Source: an uncultured Flavobacteriales bacterium (GTDB lineage: Bacteria > Bacteroidota > Bacteroidia > Palsa-965). From it: a DNA stretch of 38,268 bases. The translations under genes and the position numbers were made by a program. The notes under the pieces are model-generated. The model did no database searches. It was not told the origin of the DNA and was given only the letters and a program-made list of their open reading frames with translations. The first letter of the stretch is position 1; every line of letters starts with the position of its first letter. Location of the stretch: positions 1 to 38,268 of the forward strand of contig CAIQQJ010000112.1 in NCBI GenBank assembly GCA_903873905.1, written 5' to 3'. Of the stretch, positions 4,305-22,215 are shown piece by piece.

Positions 4305-5503
4305 TCTCCGTATATTTTTCCATAAACGTTTTCCGCAATAGTAAAATTCCTGTGTTGTACCGCTAATTGATAAATCTCCTCTGACAATTTCCCGTTTTTA
4401 TTTTTATCAAGCAAATTATCCATTTCCTTTACCGCTTTTTCCATTTCAGGAATGGAAAGATTATCAAGAACAACGCCCGTATGTGAATATGCAATAATTT
4501 CGCTGTCTTCCGAAATGTTTTTTGTGATGACAACAGGAAGACCTAGGGCCCAGTATTCTCCATTTTTTATTGGCGTACAATACCTTCTGCTTAAAACGGG
4601 TTTGAATGCTGAGAATGCAAAGTCTCCCAAACCTAGATAATCTTGAATTTCTGCATGTGAAACAAATTCAATTCTGACATTCTCTTTCGGCAATCCTGCA
4701 CCTTCACACAAAGCATAAATTTCCTCATGAGGTGTACTTGTCAGTAATAAAACAGTAAAGCATTCTCCCCAATGATCAAATGCTTTTTTGAAAAATTGAA
4801 AGGCTTCTTTTTTCAAATATAATCCACCAAATTTCCCTGCATAAACACAAACAATTTTACCATCCAGATTTAGTTTTTTCAATAACAAAGTATTCTTTCG
4901 ATGGGATAAATTGAATTGCTTCAAATCAATGCAAGCTGGCTTGGTAAAGAAATTATCTCCTGAATAATTGTATTTGGATTGTGCATATACGTTCATTCCA
5001 GAAACTACACCAATTAAATATTTTGCATGATGTGTTTGTTTTTTTTCAAGTTGGAACAAAGTTCGAAAAGCAATTCCTCCTTTTTTCCAAGTGCCCGATT
5101 CAACCATCGGCTCAGCATGTGGTTCGTAACTATCTAGTATGAGAGGAACACCGGTTTTTTTGGAAAGTAAGTACCCAATTGCACCTGCTGGCGTGCACCA
5201 AGTATGTATGGTGTCGATATTTTTTTCTTGAATGAATTTTTTGAGGAATGAAATATTGTTTCTCCAAGAAAAAATGGCTCTTAACCCAAATGGAATATAG
5301 GCGAATGATATTTTGAAAATTCCTTTTTCGATTTCAATTTCAGAATTTGAAAATGTTTTATTTTCAAGTGTCACAAGATATAGTTTGCTTCCTTCAGGCA
5401 AAATATCACGAATGATGCGCAGGTAGGGGAGTGTGTAAGTTTGCACCAACGCATCCGAGAAACTCCAATAGGTAATGACAAGGATTTTTCTTTCCATTTT
5501 CAA
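4301..5503 (-). CDS. GT4-like (GT-B fold) glycosyltransferase
   Basis: The protein is 400 residues with two Rossmann-like halves. The N-terminal half has TIHTWCTPAGAIGYLLSKKTG followed by VPLILDSYEPHAEPMVE. The C-terminal half begins with KIVCVYAGKFGGLYLKKEAF, a typical start of the nucleotide-sugar-binding domain. It contains KNGEYWALGLPVVITK, which corresponds to the donor-binding 'E-x-x-A-x-G-x-P-V' segment of GT4 enzymes. The family is more divergent than the other GT4 gene at 7379. It overlaps both neighbours by four bases. An alternative ATG two codons downstream is possible. The donor and acceptor sugars are unknown. Confidence 0.85.
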   Translation of the reverse strand: MKMERKILVITYWSFSDALVQTYTLPYLRIIRDILPEGSKLYLVTLENKTFSNSEIEIEKGIFKISFAYIPFGLRAIFSWRNNISFLKKFIQEKNIDTIHTWCTPAGAIGYLLSKKTGVPLILDSYEPHAEPMVESGTWKKGGIAFRTLFQLEKKQTHHAKYLIGVVSGMNVYAQSKYNYSGDNFFTKPACIDLKQFNLSHRKNTLLLKKLNLDGKIVCVYAGKFGGLYLKKEAFQFFKKAFDHWGECFTVLLLTSTPHEEIYALCEGAGLPKENVRIEFVSHAEIQDYLGLGDFAFSAFKPVLSRRYCTPIKNGEYWALGLPVVITKNISEDSEIIAYSHTGVVLDNLSIPEMEKAVKEMDNLLDKNKNGKLSEEIYQLAVQHRNFTIAENVYGKIYGE

Positions 5504-13205: not shown

Positions 13206-13909
13206 GTGTGTTTTTTTTCAAATAAACAATCGGCCTGCAGCAGTTCATGCTCATTACTTCGATATCCTTCAAGAATAGTCTTCAGAATAAAACCGTTGTC
13301 GTTTAAGAAAGAATAGATATCGTTGAAAACAGCGCTTCCAGTATAAATCGGACGAAAGGAAACTTCAATCCAGATTTGATTGGTCCGCTTCAATGTTTCC
13401 GCTGCACCTTTCAATATGCTCAACTCAGCACCTTGAACATCAATTTTCAAAAGATCAATGCGATCGAATTTCCCTGCAACTAGTTGGTCAAGCGTACATG
13501 ATTTCATTTGAATTTTCTCGCTGCCTTGCATCTGGAGTTCTTGCTCAACTGATTTACTTATAGGAAGAATGGATGAAGTGGCTTTCTTTTCATAGATAAA
13601 AAAATCCATCTCTTCTTCTTTGTCACTCAATAAGCGATTGTTTAGTTCAATACTCGTGTCATTACCATACTTCTGTTTCAGTTCTTCAAATAAATCTTTT
13701 TGCGGCTCAACAAGTACTACAGATGCAAGATCTTTTTCTTTTCTTAAAACTTCAAAAAAATCTCCTTTGAATGCGCCTACATCAATGTAATTCATGGGAG
13801 TATTGGGCAAATAAGAAAATAAGTTTTTACGCAATCCCACCTCTCCAAATTTCCCTGAATAGAGCACATGGTTGAGAACCTTGTAAATAAATTTTCGCAT
13901 TCCATTCAT
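13202..13909 (-). CDS. FkbM family SAM-dependent methyltransferase (copy 3, 235 aa)
   Basis: This short FkbM protein has motif I as MNYIDVGAFKGDFFEVL (39-55), VLVEPQKDLFEEL for strand 2, and the hallmark LLKIDVQGAELSILKGAAET near residue 165. It lies directly after the Wzt-type ATPase gene with a four-base overlap. That position is notable because Wzt proteins with a C-terminal domain recognise terminal modifications of their glycan, and a methyl group is one known terminal cap. A capping role is an inference from position only. Confidence 0.9.
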   Translation of the reverse strand: MNGMRKFIYKVLNHVLYSGKFGEVGLRKNLFSYLPNTPMNYIDVGAFKGDFFEVLRKEKDLASVVLVEPQKDLFEELKQKYGNDTSIELNNRLLSDKEEEMDFFIYEKKATSSILPISKSVEQELQMQGSEKIQMKSCTLDQLVAGKFDRIDLLKIDVQGAELSILKGAAETLKRTNQIWIEVSFRPIYTGSAVFNDIYSFLNDNGFILKTILEGYRSNEHELLQADCLFEKKHT

Positions 13910-15105
13910 AGTCGTGAAATTGAAACAGGTAAACGATAATAACCAAGATTCCAGTCTTGGAGAAGCACTGAATCTTTTAAACTATTAGTATAACAGTATT
14001 CAAATAGAAGTGCCTGTTCAACTCTATCATAGAATTCTTTGAAAGGTTGCGTCAAATCAGCACTTAATGAATAGAGGCCATTCGCCATTCCAGAAAGCTC
14101 TACTTCAAGATGGAAATTGTTCATGCCCTTTTGCAGGGTGAGCATCTCCGATTCATTAAAAGTTCCATATGAACCGAATGCTGCAGGATTACCACTGTAT
14201 GATTGTAATCGAATATCTAAAGCAACTTTTTTCTCTATACTCGATACAATTTCAATATTCAAGTGGATAGAAGTTTGATCGCCTTTTGGTATTTTACTGA
14301 TCTCAATTTTGCTGAAACTACAGACCTTATTTTCTTTGCTATTTTTTTCAAATGTAGTTTCACCAAGGCTATTCTTGAGATACGTACCAATAACTTCATC
14401 GGTTTTTCCCTGCATTACCATCGATCCTTTTTCAAGATAGACTCCTTTTGAACAAAGATTTTGAATGGCCGCCATGTTGTGACTCACAAAAAGTATTGTG
14501 CGCCCACTGTTGCTCACGTCTTCCATTTTACTCATGCATTTCTTTTGGAATTCAGCATCACCCACAGCGAGAACTTCGTCAATAATCAAAATCTCCGGTT
14601 CCAAAAAGGCAGCTACAGCGAATGCAAGGCGCAACTGCATTCCACTTGAAAAATGTTTTAGCGGAGTGTCAAGGAATTGTTCTGTGCCTGAAAAATCAAC
14701 AATCTCATCAAACTTCTCGGCAATTTCCTTTTGTTTCATCCCAAGTATTGAGCCGTTTAGAAAAATATTTTCCCTTCCACTTAATTCGGAATGAAAACCG
14801 GTACCAACTTCAAGCAAACTTGCAATTCTACCCCGCACAATTATTTTCCCAGTGGAAGGAGGTGTGATTTTTGAAAGTATTTTTAAAAGAGTAGATTTTC
14901 CTGCGCCATTCTTGCCAATAATACCAATCGATTCTCCAGGCAAAACATCAAATGAAACATCACGTAAAGCAAAAAAATCTTCATTGGAGGAAGAGTCCTT
15001 TTTAAAAATCCCCATCATGGATTCACGCAAGCTTAAATAGGATTTCTGCTCATGCCGGAGCCTGAATTTTTTTGATACGGATTGGATTTCCAAAATTGGT
15101 TTCAT
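13906..15105 (-). CDS. wzt: ABC transporter ATP-binding protein for glycan export (Wzt type)
   Basis: This is the ATPase that powers export of an undecaprenyl-linked glycan through the Wzm channel at the inner membrane. Its 399 residues comprise a nucleotide-binding domain and a C-terminal Wzt_C-like beta-sandwich. Walker A is GKNGAGKS (64-71), the signature is HFSSGMQLRLA (151-161), Walker B is ILIIDE (172-177), and the switch His is in LFVSHN. Residues from about 265 onward form a strand-rich domain (HLNIEIVSSIEKKVALDIRL…) like the substrate-recognition domain of O8/O9-type Wzt. It follows the permease gene by two bases and overlaps the downstream FkbM gene by four. The C-terminal domain implies recognition of a chain-end modification. 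Confidence 0.92.
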   Translation of the reverse strand: MKPILEIQSVSKKFRLRHEQKSYLSLRESMMGIFKKDSSSNEDFFALRDVSFDVLPGESIGIIGKNGAGKSTLLKILSKITPPSTGKIIVRGRIASLLEVGTGFHSELSGRENIFLNGSILGMKQKEIAEKFDEIVDFSGTEQFLDTPLKHFSSGMQLRLAFAVAAFLEPEILIIDEVLAVGDAEFQKKCMSKMEDVSNSGRTILFVSHNMAAIQNLCSKGVYLEKGSMVMQGKTDEVIGTYLKNSLGETTFEKNSKENKVCSFSKIEISKIPKGDQTSIHLNIEIVSSIEKKVALDIRLQSYSGNPAAFGSYGTFNESEMLTLQKGMNNFHLEVELSGMANGLYSLSADLTQPFKEFYDRVEQALLFEYCYTNSLKDSVLLQDWNLGYYRLPVSISRL

Positions 15106-15107
15106 GT

Positions 15108-15941
15108 TCAGGCGAGGTCTGCGAAATAAGATTCAGTTTTTCGGAAAACATAAATTCCCAAAAGAAAAAATACAATAGCGGAAATGCAACTGATTCCACA
15201 TAAAACAAAATCAACTTCTTGCCCTAAGACAAATCCACGAAAAAGTGCAATTGAACCTGACATAGGGTTAAGCGCTAGAATTTCCTGAAATATCCTATCG
15301 TGAGCGAATTTATCAGGATTAATAAAAAGCGTGACAAACATGAGGAACTGCACAAGGAATGGTATGACATATCTAAAATCCCGATATTTTACATTGAGTG
15401 CGGCAAGCAGACAGCCAGGCCCTAATGTTGAAACGATAGCCATAAGAATGCCAATTGGTAGCATCCAAATGTTTCCAAAAGTTGGACTTACTTTATAATA
15501 AATTAAGAAGATAATCAGCAATGGTAAGGTCATTAAAAAATCAAAAATGGCAACCAATATGGAGGAGATTGGTATTATTAATCTTGGGAAATATATTTTC
15601 TTAATGATGTTTGCATTTGAAACCATGCTATTCCCCGCACCTGATATTCCACTTGCAAAAATATTCCAAAGAATAAATCCGGAACATACAAAAAGTGGAT
15701 AAGGAATATTTTGTTGTGCATGATAATTCGAAAAAGCGATCGAAAAAACGATTGTCATGAGCAGCGGCTGCAGAATCGCCCAAGTAAATCCCAAAAAGGT
15801 TTGCTTGTATTTCACCCGTATGTCACGCCATGTGAAAAAATAAAAAAGCTCACGGGCATCCCAGAGCTCTCTTAAACCCATATCAAACTTTATCTTGGGT
15901 TTGATTTCATATTCAATTTCTATGACACTATTTTTTTTCAT
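15108..15941 (-). CDS. wzm: ABC-2 type permease for glycan export (Wzm type)
   Basis: This 277-residue inner-membrane subunit pairs with the ATPase encoded two bases downstream. It has six or so hydrophobic spans and the family sequence LFYFFTWRDIRVKYKQTFLG before the first span, where amphipathic helix contacts the ATPase. LGFTWAILQPLLMTIVFSIAF and the later NVKYRDFRYVIPFLVQ and LNPMSGSIALFRGFVLG segments are characteristic of the O-antigen/teichoic acid exporters (ABC2_membrane). Its start lies inside the end of the sulfotransferase gene (14-base overlap). It defines the cluster as ABC-dependent rather than Wzx/Wzy-dependent. Confidence 0.93.
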   Translation of the reverse strand: MKKNSVIEIEYEIKPKIKFDMGLRELWDARELFYFFTWRDIRVKYKQTFLGFTWAILQPLLMTIVFSIAFSNYHAQQNIPYPLFVCSGFILWNIFASGISGAGNSMVSNANIIKKIYFPRLIIPISSILVAIFDFLMTLPLLIIFLIYYKVSPTFGNIWMLPIGILMAIVSTLGPGCLLAALNVKYRDFRYVIPFLVQFLMFVTLFINPDKFAHDRIFQEILALNPMSGSIALFRGFVLGQEVDFVLCGISCISAIVFFLLGIYVFRKTESYFADLA

Positions 15942-16833
15942 TCCAATCCGAAAAATCCATTCCGGTTAGCTTGCTAAGTTCATCATTGAAAGGTGCATAA
16001 AAATCAATCAGTAAATTTCTCATTTCAAGTGACATGGGGGCATAATTTTCACTCTTCAAGTTGATGTTTCTTAGATACTCACCAACCTTGTAATCCATTT
16101 TTCCAGGCAATATTTTCCTGAAAAAATCCTTAATGGGATTGTGATTTCCTAGAATACGTAGAATGAATTTTCCATATCTCGCCGATCGAGTGAGTTTTGT
16201 TTCATTAAAGCGTTTTGATGTATCAGGTGTGAAATCATCATTTATTCCCATCCACTTGAAAATATCTAGACATATTTTTGTGGAATTGGCCTTCAAATCT
16301 TCGTAACGAATGAGTTTGATTTGTTCAGGTGGAAAATAATTGTAAATATTTTTCAAGTGATACTCGTAAAGACTCATCCCAATTAGAAATTCATATCTCC
16401 AATCCGTCATATCCTTATTTTTCATGACCTCTTCAAGCGATTCAAACGGATTGTCAATCATACCATAATTCTTTTCCATAAGAAAGGCAGAATAGGTACG
16501 TTCAACTGGATTTCGAAGTGTAATTACGAGTTTGCAATTTGGATTATGTGCTTTAAGAAGTGCAATTCCCGCATCGTTTACGTACAAACCCGCATTTTTT
16601 GCAATGAGATAATCAGCATGAAGATTACCAGGAAAATATTTTTTCCGTGCATTTTCGAAGTTATTATCATACTGGTTGGGGTCTACGAAGTAGGCAAATT
16701 CCTTGTGATAATGCGTTTTCAAACTAGGATGTTGTCCAAGATAATTTTTCAATGAGGTTGTCCCTGCTTTCTGGGCACCAATGATCATTAAAGAAATATT
16801 TTGTTCTTCGGCGGACTTATCGTTCTGCTTCAT
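15928..16833 (-). CDS. PAPS-dependent sulfotransferase domain protein
   Basis: The 301-residue protein carries the 5'-phosphosulfate-binding loop LMIIGAQKAGTTSLKNYLG (15-33) and the 3'-phosphate motif KLVITLRNPVERTYSAFL near 100. The later IKLIRYEDLKAN segment is also typical of carbohydrate sulfotransferases (Sulfotransfer_1/3 type). It would move sulfate from PAPS to a hydroxyl of the exported glycan. I chose the ATG at 16833; a GTG five codons upstream is an alternative. It is the first gene of the operon, with only 60 bases to the divergent rdgB start, so the operon promoter must lie there or inside rdgB. A weak TATATTGT in that gap resembles TAnnTTTG. Confidence 0.9.
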   Translation of the reverse strand: MKQNDKSAEEQNISLMIIGAQKAGTTSLKNYLGQHPSLKTHYHKEFAYFVDPNQYDNNFENARKKYFPGNLHADYLIAKNAGLYVNDAGIALLKAHNPNCKLVITLRNPVERTYSAFLMEKNYGMIDNPFESLEEVMKNKDMTDWRYEFLIGMSLYEYHLKNIYNYFPPEQIKLIRYEDLKANSTKICLDIFKWMGINDDFTPDTSKRFNETKLTRSARYGKFILRILGNHNPIKDFFRKILPGKMDYKVGEYLRNINLKSENYAPMSLEMRNLLIDFYAPFNDELSKLTGMDFSDWNEKK

Positions 16834-16893
16834 AATTTTGAGGCTCACAATATAAGAAATCCATGGGTTTTGATGACCCGAAAGTTTTGTATT

Positions 16894-17472
16894 ATGGAAC
16901 TAGTTTTTGCTTCTCAGAATCAAAATAAGCTTAGGGAAATTGCTTCTCTAATGCCGAAAGGCATTTTTCTGAAAGGGCTGGATGAATTTATTTTCAAGGA
17001 CGAATTACCAGAAACGGGAGATACTCTTGAAAAAAATGCCCTTCAAAAAGCTCGTTTTGTATTTGAGAAAACGAATAAAATTTGTTTTGCTGATGATACA
17101 GGTCTGGAAATTGAAGCCTTAAATGGAAAACCAGGTGTGTATTCAGCACGCTATGCTGGCGAACAGAAAAATGCGAATGATAATATGGAGAAAGTGCTTA
17201 GTGAATTGAAGTCAAATACCCTCAGAAAGGCGCGATTTCGTACGGTTATTGCGTTTTGTGACGGAAAAAAGGAGTACCTGTTTGAAGGAATTGTTGAAGG
17301 AGAAATACTCGAAGAAACAAGAGGTGAAAAAGGTTTTGGGTATGATCCGATATTTATGCCTGATGGATTTTCAAAATCGTTTGCTCAAATGAGTTTGGAG
17401 GAGAAGAATACGGTGAGTCATAGGGCTAGGGCTTTGAGAAAATTTGTGGAATTTATTGAAAATAATTTCTGA
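16894..17472 (+). CDS. rdgB: RdgB/HAM1 non-canonical purine NTP pyrophosphatase
   Basis: The enzyme hydrolyses dITP, ITP and XTP to monophosphates and keeps deaminated purines out of DNA and RNA. From the ATG at 16894 it is 192 residues, the family norm. Signatures are the N-terminal FASQNQNKLREI substrate loop, the FADDTGLEIEALNGKPGVYSA segment with the catalytic Asp, RTVIAFCDG, and EKGFGYDPIFMPDG near residue 150. The end SHRARALRKF is also conserved. An in-frame upstream extension from 16801 would overlap the sulfotransferase gene and lacks family similarity, so I rejected it. It is a housekeeping gene lying between glycan-related genes. Confidence 0.95.
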   Translation: MELVFASQNQNKLREIASLMPKGIFLKGLDEFIFKDELPETGDTLEKNALQKARFVFEKTNKICFADDTGLEIEALNGKPGVYSARYAGEQKNANDNMEKVLSELKSNTLRKARFRTVIAFCDGKKEYLFEGIVEGEILEETRGEKGFGYDPIFMPDGFSKSFAQMSLEEKNTVSHRARALRKFVEFIENNF

Positions 17473-17587
17473 TCATTAAGCATAATGTAAGATTTGCCAG
17501 AAGAATATCTCCAAATGAATCTTCAATTTACCAGTGAAGTCTTGAGTTTTGGATAATTCAATAATCAAATTTCTTTTCTTAGGAATT

Positions 17588-18352
17588 TTAATTTGAAACT
17601 TTGAAATTGGAGTTCACATAAATCATGTCGAATTCTAATGCAATAATTCCAGCCCTTCGATAGGCAACAATCCAATCAACCGCCTCAAAGCCTAGTTTTC
17701 TCAATGCTTCATCTGTTTCAAAATAATGACAGGATCCTTCGTAGGATGCAGAACCAGCCATTTCTGTAACAACCATATAGGTTTTTTTTAATGTTTCTTG
17801 GGCTCCATTAATTAAATTTAATTCATTCCCTTGTGTGTCCATTTTAAGCAACAAAACTTCTTCGAAATTATAGTCATCCAGTCTTTTTGTTGGAACCTTA
17901 ATTTCTTGAGTCACTTTTAATTGAGTGCTCATTGTTTCATTTTCTTTTTTAGCATAAAACTCCGCATCAACCTGTAACAATGAAGACGATACCTGGTTTT
18001 GAGTGATGTGAAAAGTGCTTTCACCAGTTACGTTTGAAAGTGCAACTGGAAATAATTCAATATTGGGTTTTTTCGTAATATTTTTATTTATCAATTCAAG
18101 TATTTCCGGATTAGGTTCAAATGCCTTAATCGATGCATTAGGAAATTGGCTCGAAAAAAACAGACAGGACAATCCATCATAAGATCCGGCATCAATAATA
18201 ATTGATTTCGTATTTTTCGAAATGCCTGACCTTTTTGCAAATTTTGCTGCACGGTATAGATGTTCGAATGGTGGTGTAAAATAAACGTCCTTCAAATAAA
18301 GAATTATTTTCATCCAAGGATCACGATTTCTAATTCCTAGTAAATTTTTCAT
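17588..18352 (-). CDS. FkbM family SAM-dependent methyltransferase (copy 4, 254 aa)
   Basis: Motif I is SIIIDAGSYDGLSCLFFSS (50-68), with AFEPNPEILELI as strand 2 and its acidic contact. The hallmark is LLKMDTQGNELNLINGAQET, with T-Q-G in place of the more usual V-E/Q-G, followed by VVTEMAG. It stands alone on the minus strand, converging on rdgB, with the ligase operon divergent on its other side. It is therefore outside the main glycan operon although it encodes the same kind of activity. It may act on the same glycan or another surface molecule. Confidence 0.88.
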   Translation of the reverse strand: MKNLLGIRNRDPWMKIILYLKDVYFTPPFEHLYRAAKFAKRSGISKNTKSIIIDAGSYDGLSCLFFSSQFPNASIKAFEPNPEILELINKNITKKPNIELFPVALSNVTGESTFHITQNQVSSSLLQVDAEFYAKKENETMSTQLKVTQEIKVPTKRLDDYNFEEVLLLKMDTQGNELNLINGAQETLKKTYMVVTEMAGSASYEGSCHYFETDEALRKLGFEAVDWIVAYRRAGIIALEFDMIYVNSNFKVSN

Positions 18353-18706: not shown

Positions 18707-21412
18707 ATGAAAATACGTGTTGGAATCATCTTTGGTGGCGTTTCGAAGGAACGTGAAATTTCCTTTGCTGGCGGTAGAACCGTTTACGATAATCTCGATA
18801 AATCCTTGTTTGAACCTGTGCCAATTTTTGTGGACAGTTTCGGAAAATTTATTCTGCTCAATTGGGAATTCGTTTACAAAGGCAGTATTCGCGATTTTTA
18901 TCCGCCTTTGGAAATGGTTCCGGAATCAAAAGGTGAATTTCAAGTATATGCCGAATCACTTCATCCCGATCCAAAACAGCAAGATGAAATGGCAAGGGCA
19001 TTAGGAAAAAGAATTCCTACTGATGAATTAAAAGAACTTTTCGATTTTGCTTTTCTCTGCTTACACGGACCTTTCGGTGAGGATGGCCGTATTCAGGGAA
19101 TGTTTGAGTATTTGGGAATACCCTATTCCGGAAGTGGTGTGCTGCCTTCTGCAATTGGAATTGATAAGGCCATTCAAAAGCAATTGATGGTCAATGCAGG
19201 TTTTGCTTCTCCTGAATTTTTCGCGATAAAGAGGAACGAATGGTTTGCCGGAAATCAAAAAACGCTTTTTGAAAAAGTGAAAAGAGAAATCGGATTTCCA
19301 TTTGTTGTTAAAGCTGCTACCCAAGGTTCTTCTATTGGAATTTCCATTTTGCATAATGAAGAATTCAATGAATTTATTGCAGCAGTGAATAAGAGTTTTT
19401 TCACAAGAGAAATTACCGCTGAACAATGGTCATTGCTTGATGAAGAATCAAAAAATGAAACAATTCGTTTGCTGACGGATATCCGTGAAGGAATTGGAAT
19501 GCCTATGATTGTGCATGTGAATGGAAAGCAAGAAGTGAGTTTTCATCCTGATGTTTTGTTGGACACAGTTGAAAATCATTTTGCCAATAATAAGACGGCA
19601 TTATTTTTCGAATCGCTTGATGCAGAATCTGAAATTCTCGTTGAAGGTTTTATTGAAGGAAAAGAGTTTTCATGCATTGTTGTTGCGGATGAAAATGAAA
19701 AAGCAGTTGCTCTTCCTCCAACCGAAATTCGTAAAGGCAAGGAACTCTTTGATTATCGTTCAAAATATTTACCTGGGCTTTCACGGAAAATTACACCAAT
19801 AGAATTACCAGAAGAACAGATTGAAAAAATCAGAAAGGAATGTGAAAGATTATTTCCCGCTCTTGGTTTTGATGTTTACGCACGCATTGATGGATTTATT
19901 TCAAAAGACAACACCATTTTTCTAAATGATCCGAATACCACTTCGGGCATGATGCCTTCTTCTTTCTTTTTCCATCAGGCGGCTGAAATTGGTTTGAACC
20001 CATCTCAGTTTTTGACTTTCATTATTCGAACTTCTTTACGTGCAAGAATTCGCGGTGATAAAAATGCAAAACGTTTCGAGCATTTGTTGTTGAAGTTGGA
20101 GGATGCAATGCATGCGTCCCGTGCAAAAGGTGAAACGAAAATTAGAGTGGCTGTTATTCTTGGTGGCTATTCTTCTGAGCGACATATTTCTGTTGAAAGC
20201 GGAAGGAATATTTACGAGAAACTTTCTTCCTCTACAAAATATGCTCCTTTTCCCGTTTTTCTAACCGGCAGCAATGAGGAACATAACCTGTATGTTATTC
20301 CCGTAAATGTTTTGTTGAAGGATAACGCTGACGACATTAAAGAAAAAATAGATCATTGGAAAGTGCATCCTGTGGTGAAACGAATTATAGATTCTTGTTC
20401 TTCCATAACAAAAACATATTCTTCAACAGATGCACTCGCAGCTCCACGAAAGATCACCTATGAGGAACTTGCGAAAATGACCGATGCTGTATTTCTTGGT
20501 CTTCACGGTCGACCAGGCGAAGATGGAGCTGTTCAGGAAAAACTGGACAAGTTGGGAATTCCCTATAATGGTTCTGGAAAAGCAACTTCTGAAATAACAA
20601 TTGATAAGTTCCGGACGAATGAAATTCTCATGCAGAATGGATTGCTAGCTGCAGCACATTTGCTCGTCACCGAAGAGGAATGGAATTCAAATCGTGAAAA
20701 TGTTTTGAAAACCATTGATGAGAAAATCAAATGGCCATTTATCGCAAAACCAGTTGATGATGGTTGCAGCTCCGCTGTTCGAAGGGTAAAAACAAAACTT
20801 GAATTAGAAACCTTCGCCGATCTAATATTCCGAAAAACGGAAGAATTTGATTCGAATAAGGCTGATATTCTGAAGATAAAGGCGAAAGAAGAATTTCCAC
20901 GAAAGAAAGTTTTTCTAGTTGAGGAATTAATCAGTAAAAAAGATTCAAAACATTTCTTGGAAATAACAGGAGGAATGTTGACGCGTTATAATTCCAAAGG
21001 AGAAATTGAATATGAAGTTTTTGAGGCATCAGAAGCGTTATCTGAAGGTGAAGTGCTTTCTTTAGAAGAAAAATTTCTTGCAGGGCAAGGACAGAATATT
21101 ACACCGGCCCGATATTCTTTCAATGCAAAGGAACGCCAGCAGATTTCTGATCAGGTAAAGGCAACCTTAGGAGCAGCGGCACGTCTGTTAAATATTCAGG
21201 GATATGCCCGGATTGATGCTTTCGTTCGCATTTATGATGCTGCTAGGATTGAAGTCGTTTTTGTGGAAGTGAATTCGTTGCCAGGAATGACTCCTGCAAC
21301 TTGCATTTTCCATCAAGGCGCTATTAATCATTACAAACCATACGAATTTATTGACCGCATCCTTGATTTTGCTTTCGAACGCAAGCGCAGACAGGTGCAA
21401 CAACACGCTTGA
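18707..21412 (+). CDS. ddl: Tandem double-module D-alanine--D-alanine ligase
   Basis: At 901 residues this is over twice the usual Ddl length (about 300-370). Two ATP-grasp ligase modules lie end to end, about 1-460 and 477-901. Module 1 has GGVSKEREISF (E15), LHGPFGEDGRIQ, KAATQGSSIG (S208), RSKYLPG (K353/Y354), YARID (R393, D395) and NDPNTTSGM (D408, N410). Module 2 has GGYSSERHIS (E491), LHGRPGEDGAVQ, KPVDDGCSSA (C687), EEKFLAG (K789/F790), YARID (R835, D837) and VEVNSLPGM (E854, N856). Compared with E. coli DdlB, module 1 keeps the E15-S150-Y216 triad but has Asp for metal ligand E270. Module 2 keeps E270/N272 but has Cys for S150 and Phe for Y216. Ddl joins two D-Ala for peptidoglycan. 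The next gene's ATG is 6 bases beyond the stop. Confidence 0.93.
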   Translation: MKIRVGIIFGGVSKEREISFAGGRTVYDNLDKSLFEPVPIFVDSFGKFILLNWEFVYKGSIRDFYPPLEMVPESKGEFQVYAESLHPDPKQQDEMARALGKRIPTDELKELFDFAFLCLHGPFGEDGRIQGMFEYLGIPYSGSGVLPSAIGIDKAIQKQLMVNAGFASPEFFAIKRNEWFAGNQKTLFEKVKREIGFPFVVKAATQGSSIGISILHNEEFNEFIAAVNKSFFTREITAEQWSLLDEESKNETIRLLTDIREGIGMPMIVHVNGKQEVSFHPDVLLDTVENHFANNKTALFFESLDAESEILVEGFIEGKEFSCIVVADENEKAVALPPTEIRKGKELFDYRSKYLPGLSRKITPIELPEEQIEKIRKECERLFPALGFDVYARIDGFISKDNTIFLNDPNTTSGMMPSSFFFHQAAEIGLNPSQFLTFIIRTSLRARIRGDKNAKRFEHLLLKLEDAMHASRAKGETKIRVAVILGGYSSERHISVESGRNIYEKLSSSTKYAPFPVFLTGSNEEHNLYVIPVNVLLKDNADDIKEKIDHWKVHPVVKRIIDSCSSITKTYSSTDALAAPRKITYEELAKMTDAVFLGLHGRPGEDGAVQEKLDKLGIPYNGSGKATSEITIDKFRTNEILMQNGLLAAAHLLVTEEEWNSNRENVLKTIDEKIKWPFIAKPVDDGCSSAVRRVKTKLELETFADLIFRKTEEFDSNKADILKIKAKEEFPRKKVFLVEELISKKDSKHFLEITGGMLTRYNSKGEIEYEVFEASEALSEGEVLSLEEKFLAGQGQNITPARYSFNAKERQQISDQVKATLGAAARLLNIQGYARIDAFVRIYDAARIEVVFVEVNSLPGMTPATCIFHQGAINHYKPYEFIDRILDFAFERKRRQVQQHA

Positions 21413-21417
21413 GCATT

Positions 21418-22215
21418 ATGATAAAAAAGATTTTTGCTTTTCTTAAAAGCCGTATTTTCCTAATCAACATGGGTGTTGCTGTTGTTGCTTTGCCTTTTTT
21501 GTTTTGGATGATTTTCGCATTGTTGAAATCCTACACGCATCACAATGACTTTGTTTTGGTTCCTGACTTCAAGGATTTGAAATTACAACAACTTGAAACA
21601 TTCATCTCGGATAAAAAAATCAATTATGAAATCATTGATTCCATTTGGGATCCAAAATTGCAAAAGGGGATTGTTGTAAAACAAGATCCTGATCCTGGTG
21701 AAAAGGTGAAAGAAGGGAGAAAAGTTTATTTGTACGTCACTTCAGTTCGTCCTCCTATGATTAATATGCCCAAGCTGGAAGATCTTTCACTTCGACAGGC
21801 GATGGCTGTTTGTGAGAGTTACGGATTGATTTGTGTAGCTCAAGGTGTAGATGATCCTTGTGATGGTTGTATTGTTAAGCAACTATACAGGGAAAAAAGA
21901 ATTGAGCCAGGAACACTTATTGAAAAAGGACAAACCATTAAATTGATGTATGGCAAAGGAGAAAATAACAGCGGACAAGGATTTGATGTTCCGAATTTGG
22001 TTGGATTGACTTTCCGAGCTGCTCGTGGTAAAATGGTGGACAAAGGTTTAGAATGGCTGCTGGTTGCCGATCCTGGAGTGAAAGACACTTTAAACGCATT
22101 TGTCTATAGCCAGGAACCAAAACCAGGAAGAGATCGTAAATTAATTACTGGTGCAATGATTGATTTGCGTGTGACCAATGACAAATCAAAACTTAGTGGT
22201 GATTCGATTAAATGA
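21418..22215 (+). CDS. Membrane-anchored protein with three PASTA domains
   Basis: From the ATG at 21418 the protein is 265 residues; a TTG three codons upstream overlaps the ligase stop. A single transmembrane segment (about 13-36) places the rest in the periplasm. Three PASTA domains follow: FVLVPDFKDLKLQQLETFI to about 108, then MINMPKLEDLSLRQAMAVC to about 180, then FDVPNLVGLTFRAARGKM to about 255. Each ends in the typical 'Q.P..G..V..G' pattern (KQDPDPGEKVKEG, SQEPKPGRDRKLITG). The second domain has a Cys pair (DDPCDGCIV). PASTA domains bind peptidoglycan or mediate contacts between wall-synthesis proteins. No kinase or transpeptidase domain is attached. A neighbouring ddl is usual in Bacteroidota and suggests a wall-related role. 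Confidence 0.92.
   Translation: MIKKIFAFLKSRIFLINMGVAVVALPFLFWMIFALLKSYTHHNDFVLVPDFKDLKLQQLETFISDKKINYEIIDSIWDPKLQKGIVVKQDPDPGEKVKEGRKVYLYVTSVRPPMINMPKLEDLSLRQAMAVCESYGLICVAQGVDDPCDGCIVKQLYREKRIEPGTLIEKGQTIKLMYGKGENNSGQGFDVPNLVGLTFRAARGKMVDKGLEWLLVADPGVKDTLNAFVYSQEPKPGRDRKLITGAMIDLRVTNDKSKLSGDSIK

Follow-up and report, generated by a model that had tools for sequence, protein, structure and literature searches.

D-Ala-D-Ala ligase (Ddl) is essential and universal in peptidoglycan synthesis, and it is a drug target (D-cycloserine). One gene in the window (the whole stretch of DNA analyzed here, 38,268 nucleotides) encodes two Ddl modules in a single chain, with different active-site changes in each of them. 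The question is whether both halves are ligases and, if so, of what. The relevant features are as follows.

18707..21412, + strand: tandem Ddl gene, 901 aa (open reading frame and translation; Pfam Dala_Dala_lig_N twice, plus Dala_Dala_lig_C stretches)
18707..20062, + strand: module 1, aa 1-452, Ddl fold (superposition on 2dln, residue table)
19928..19930, + strand: Asp408 codon, E270 position of DdlB (alignment)
20063..20137, + strand: helical linker between the modules, aa 453-477 (AlphaFold2 helix 454-477, high confidence)
20138..21409, + strand: module 2, aa 478-901, Ddl fold (own AlphaFold2 model, superposition on 2dln, residue table)
20318..20335, + strand: KDNADD motif, aa 538-543, in the module 2 N-lobe, near-invariant among tandems
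20765..20767, + strand: Cys687 codon, S150 position (alignment)
21074..21076, + strand: Phe790 codon, Y216 position (alignment; DdlB Y216F/wild-type pair)
21409..22215, + strand: PASTA-domain protein gene (PF03793, E 1.3e-22), overlapping the stop of the tandem gene

Domain architecture and predicted structure

Pfam identifies two PF01820 N-domains and four PF07478 C-domain stretches in the 901-aa protein. The AlphaFold2 model of the full protein has pLDDT 90.8 and pTM 0.91, and its module 1 superposes on E. coli DdlB (2dln) with 1.7 Å over 305 of 306 residues (VIA-align, Z 36.9). Module 2, modelled alone (AlphaFold2, pLDDT 91.0, pTM 0.88), superposes on 2dln with 2.1 Å over 303 residues (VIA-align, Z 34.8). 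Pfam and the superpositions thus agree on two full Ddl modules, as the original prediction had claimed. For module 2, Foldseek ranks the D-Ala:D-Lac ligase LmDdl2 (1ehi) first, with the fold rankings close together and 1ehi tied with D-Ala-D-Ala ligases in VIA-align. The two modules of one protein are only about 25% identical, and in the GG-H63 and S150-E180 intervals the tandem has longer inserts than single-module Ddls. A pTM as high as 0.91 for both modules together implies a fixed predicted arrangement.

It is extremely improbable that two adjacent ddl genes have been read as one through an assembly or annotation error. This explanation is already refuted by recurrence, as well over 100 independent genomes, among them that of the isolate Pontibacter ramchanderi, encode the tandem in one open frame; moreover, the linker is confidently predicted to be a continuous helix.

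Upstream of the tandem, on the - strand (window 13906-18352), there are genes encoding an ABC transporter ATPase, an ABC-2 membrane protein, a sulfotransferase and an FkbM methyltransferase, which suggests a polysaccharide export or modification cluster. Searched against anti-phage defence families, the tandem Ddl matches none in PADLOC-DB up to E 0.01.

Active-site residues and their conservation

In E. coli DdlB, the reference enzyme, the catalytic triad is E15-S150-Y216, and E270 is a metal ligand. The corresponding residues are E15, S208, Y354, D408, N410 and SGMM in module 1, and E491, C687, F790, E854, N856 and PGMT in module 2. The assignments were checked with HMMER alignments to solved Ddls and with a joint alignment of 338 sequences, all of which agree; the AlphaFold2 superpositions, used as a check on the overall fold of each module, agree with the alignments. 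In particular, "eekfLaG" in the module 2 profile lines up with "yEAKFLS" in the Y216F mutant of DdlB (1iow) and with "yEAKYLS" in the wild type (1iov). The positions read earlier by eye (E15, S208, Y354, D408 and SGMM; C687, F790, E854, N856 and PGM) therefore hold in HMMER and in the joint alignment.

Conservation was analyzed in 135 distinct proteins of the family, 133 of them with a full module 2, against 70 single-module Bacteroidota Ddls. All module 1 sequences have Asp in the E270 position (135/135), while single-module Ddls have Glu (70/70). In module 2, Cys occupies the S150 position (133/133, against Ser in 70/70 single-module Ddls), and Phe occupies the Y216 position (133/133, against Tyr in 69/70). 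Free variation of D408, C687 and F790, the three residues singled out by the original prediction, is thus excluded. The E/S/Y triad is intact in 135/135 module 1 sequences; in module 2 the Glu is kept and both S150 and Y216 are replaced (133/133). Position P275 is Ser in 133/135 module 1 sequences, while it is Pro in 70/70 single-module Ddls. Further changes in module 2 are His in position E17 (133/133), Thr in position S281 (132/132) and Cys in position L282 (123/132).

Both modules retain K97, K144, E180, E187, K215, R255, D257, N272 and G276, no position showing more than one exception, and module 2 likewise retains E270 in at least 132 of 133 sequences. The two modules are similarly conserved, with 23.0 invariant sites per 100 in module 1 and 22.8 in module 2, and median identities to the window protein of 65% and 67%, respectively. 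Asp in place of E270 in module 1 is a conservative change.

It is unlikely that both modules make D-Ala-D-Ala and that the fusion merely doubles the active sites or tunes kinetics. The ATP site of module 2 is complete, and the Y216F mutant of DdlB has been crystallized with bound phosphoryl phosphinate (1iow), so that Phe allows binding of a mimic of the intermediate. However, the acceptor-pocket changes are fixed and module-specific (133/133), while redundant copies would be expected to drift.

In one genome (L168, protein starting near 4823), module 1 carries about 30 extra residues (MSNEELKIENSSAAAETPGTEHQALSTKHQAPS) between the D257 and E270 positions. This stretch is in frame, lies inside the catalytic lobe and looks like an inserted repeat element.

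Distribution, origin and partial loss of the tandem

To describe the distribution of the tandem, 246 genomes of the window's class were searched twice, with the tandem protein as a query and with TIGR01205. A full-length single Ddl (called at ≥233 bits with TIGR01205, 9 of the 136 lying just below the curated cut-off) was found in 136/246 genomes, and the tandem or its stub derivative (see below) in 110/246. None of the 246 genomes has both a single Ddl and a tandem or stub, and none lacks both. The two groups are well separated, single-Ddl genomes matching the tandem weakly (E 3e-23 or worse), while tandem and stub genomes match it at E < 1e-100. Hence, the tandem replaces the ordinary Ddl in many Bacteroidota, and within the class some 45% of the genomes sampled rely on a two-module Ddl with different active sites.

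The window genome, which is 100% complete, has no Ddl besides the tandem, its other TIGR01205 matches scoring at most 50.6 bits; the other PF07478 matches, within the same limit, are read as other ATP-grasp enzymes. MurF, which consumes D-Ala-D-Ala, is present (375 bits), and D-Ala-D-Ala is therefore needed. We infer the D-Ala-D-Ala ligase function of the tandem from its being the sole Ddl beside MurF. The same genome contains a second MurF-like domain (G000:C33:8520-9791; 287.8 bits, just below the cut-off) in a frame of 856 aa, which may be a further fusion of a cell-wall enzyme or racemase.

A PASTA gene lies directly downstream at 62/116 tandem loci. It is adjacent to 16/34 single-module ddl loci of the class and to 0/27 outside the class. 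The PASTA neighbour, which was the only synteny considered, suggests that at some loci the tandem and the single-module ddl share a slot. Single-module and tandem Ddls both occur, in different genomes, in three families (f6, f83 and f90), which probably reflects repeated replacement or transfer at shallow depth. Genomes of the phylum with intermediate TIGR01205 scores (f14, f26, f30, f32, f36, f40 and f45) were considered as further tandems and rejected, as they match the tandem only as single-module Ddls do; G189, a genome of the window's class with an intermediate score, has the tandem.

In the phylogenetic tree, module 1 and module 2 each form one clade (support 99 and 100; 100/100 for module 2 in a second tree), and the two-module state therefore arose once, before the present diversity. 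While the monophyly of each module is settled, their placement as sisters (support 96; 96/87 in the second tree) is accompanied by long stems and a long-branch warning. With such stems, it is compatible both with duplication and with fusion of two different Ddls. That the modules separated and specialized long ago belongs to the explanation favored below and shares the roughly even chance given to that explanation as a whole.

One family differs in having module 1 followed by a tail of about 110-170 aa, in 81/81 sampled genomes (28 genera) with one match per genome. The tails match the module 2 HMM (24/33 at E < 1e-3, best 2.7e-22) better than module 1 (best 1.7e-8). Residues D408, S208 and Y354 are unchanged in 32/32 of these stub proteins, and position P275 is Pro in 32/32. 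Lys538 of the KDNADD segment is retained in 32/32 tails, and GG of the first loop is still visible in 11/32. The stub proteins form one clade (support 99/100). No other Ddl was detected in the 81 genomes, and in the two family members belonging to the class sample a single-module Ddl is absent by TIGR01205 as well. Fragments of draft genomes that lie at contig edges or are split (G005, G008, G321, G337, G352, G443 and G480) were left out of this argument.

The same stub form, 623 aa long, is found in Bernardetia sp. Wsw4-3y2. Its gene (L282, NZ_CP147018.1 82783-84654) lies on a 602-kb replicon labelled as a plasmid; this replicon, the only one considered, would be a chromid if the stub-form Ddl is the sole Ddl there. 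In a relative from the window's genus the tandem is interrupted (two matches, L018 and L022, in G005:C80, one with an in-frame TAA), which is likely a sequencing error, since the genome is 72% complete.

As no other Ddl was detected in the stub family, module 1 with Asp for Glu270 apparently suffices there as the sole Ddl, and it is probably this copy that is essential. The lineage lacking most of module 2 is a natural deletion experiment, and it makes the role of each half directly testable. Retention of the N-lobe piece suggests that it makes a structural contact with module 1.

These observations bear on obligate complementation, in which each module is deficient and the pair alone is active. 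Each module does deviate from the canonical active site at positions of its own, but in the stub family and in Bernardetia the E270D module 1 persists although the active site of module 2 is gone, so that this explanation is very unlikely, being largely refuted by distribution. The original prediction had offered three options, and the strong form of one of them, an obligate internal dimer, is weakened by this evidence, while the complementary changes themselves stand. The other two, one active plus one regulatory half and two active halves with different products, are both still candidates.

Proposed function and comparison with known systems

We give about an even chance to the following explanation: the tandem is the sole Ddl, with module 1 as the essential D-Ala-D-Ala ligase and module 2 as a second site with an altered acceptor. 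Module 1, which keeps the D-Ala-D-Ala triad and uses Asp as one metal ligand, would perform the essential ligation, as indicated by the absence of another Ddl and by the stub family. Module 2 would be a second ATP-grasp site, retaining the residues for ATP, metal and acyl phosphate, with an acceptor pocket probably reshaped by Ser to Cys, Tyr to Phe, Ser281 to Thr and Leu282 to Cys. It would probably join D-Ala to an acceptor other than, or besides, D-Ala; its N-lobe would also brace module 1, and its activity would be dispensable in some lineages.

The main rival, possible and clearly less probable, is that module 1 is the ligase, and module 2 is a productless regulatory or structural partner that binds ATP and D-Ala and replaces the second subunit of the homodimer. 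Ser and Tyr of the triad are lost from module 2 in every member, the two-module model implies a fixed arrangement, only a structural N-lobe piece is kept in the stub family, and the homodimer is a recurrent feature of Ddls (PMC6899670). Still, all phosphate, metal and oxyanion residues of module 2 have stayed at or close to invariance over deep divergence, as would be unusual in a partner that has lost its activity. With nearly all of its ATP, metal and oxyanion residues in place, the second half is more readily seen as active than as an inert regulator, though ATP-dependent allostery, instead of catalysis, could account for the conservation.

Within the preferred explanation of an active module 2, a different or broader acceptor is favored because in lactic acid bacteria the Y216 position tells the two kinds of ligase apart, with Phe in depsipeptide (D-Ala-D-Lac) and Tyr in dipeptide ligases; there, the F261Y substitution switches the activity of the Leuconostoc Ddl (PMC5996685). 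Against the explanation as a whole, S150C and E17H in module 2 make the analogy with lactate partial, as we know of no precedent for these two changes among D-Ala-D-Lac ligases. The stub family lives without module 2, so any product of it is dispensable.

In the open-licence literature we found no publication on a bacterial tandem Ddl. The genes themselves are already annotated (a stub-form relative is labelled D-alanine--D-alanine ligase in the database), while the two-module architecture and the double active site appear undescribed in bacteria.

Compared with single-module Ddls (E. coli DdlA and DdlB; TIGR01205; PF01820 and PF07478), the tandem has the same fold and largely keeps the ATP, metal and substrate residues. 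It scores 359.7 bits with TIGR01205 when summed over the modules (222.8 for module 1 and 143.3 for module 2). It shares the PASTA neighbour with the single-module Ddls of the class, with which it is mutually exclusive in genomes. Unlike them, it has two modules per chain, with E270D and P275S in module 1 and S150C, Y216F, E17H and S281T in module 2.

The D-Ala-D-Lac ligases of lactic acid bacteria (LmDdl2, 1ehi) have Phe in the Y216 position, in common with module 2 (133/133) only. They differ in being single-module, and from module 2 in its S150C and E17H; with the NCBIfam D-Ala-D-Lac model NF000206 module 2 scores 79.7 bits, below the 550-bit cut-off.

The large subunit of carbamoyl-phosphate synthase contains an internal ATP-grasp duplication with two differentiated sites, both halves being needed for one product. 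The Ddl tandem resembles it in the duplicated ATP-grasp module; however, it belongs to a different family, and its second half has been discarded in one clade.

Two Ddl modules in one protein are also characteristic of the chloroplast DDL of plants (Physcomitrium, Arabidopsis), where they are fused throughout the plant lineage (PMC9954125). The plant protein, compared here by its published description, is unlike the bacterial tandem in being eukaryotic and plastid-associated. Most plastid peptidoglycan enzymes are reported to be non-cyanobacterial (PMC6946739), and the moss Ddl is reported to be closest to homologues from Fibrobacteres-Chlorobi-Bacteroidetes (PMC9434261). A bolder and rather unlikely proposal is that module 2 is a built-in D-Ala-X ligase and that the plant two-module Ddl derives from the bacterial fusion; if so, a large part of Gram-negative Bacteroidota would have two peptidoglycan-terminus activities in one polypeptide. 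With the origin of the plant fused DDL reported as non-cyanobacterial, the Bacteroidota tandem is an obvious bacterial candidate for comparison.
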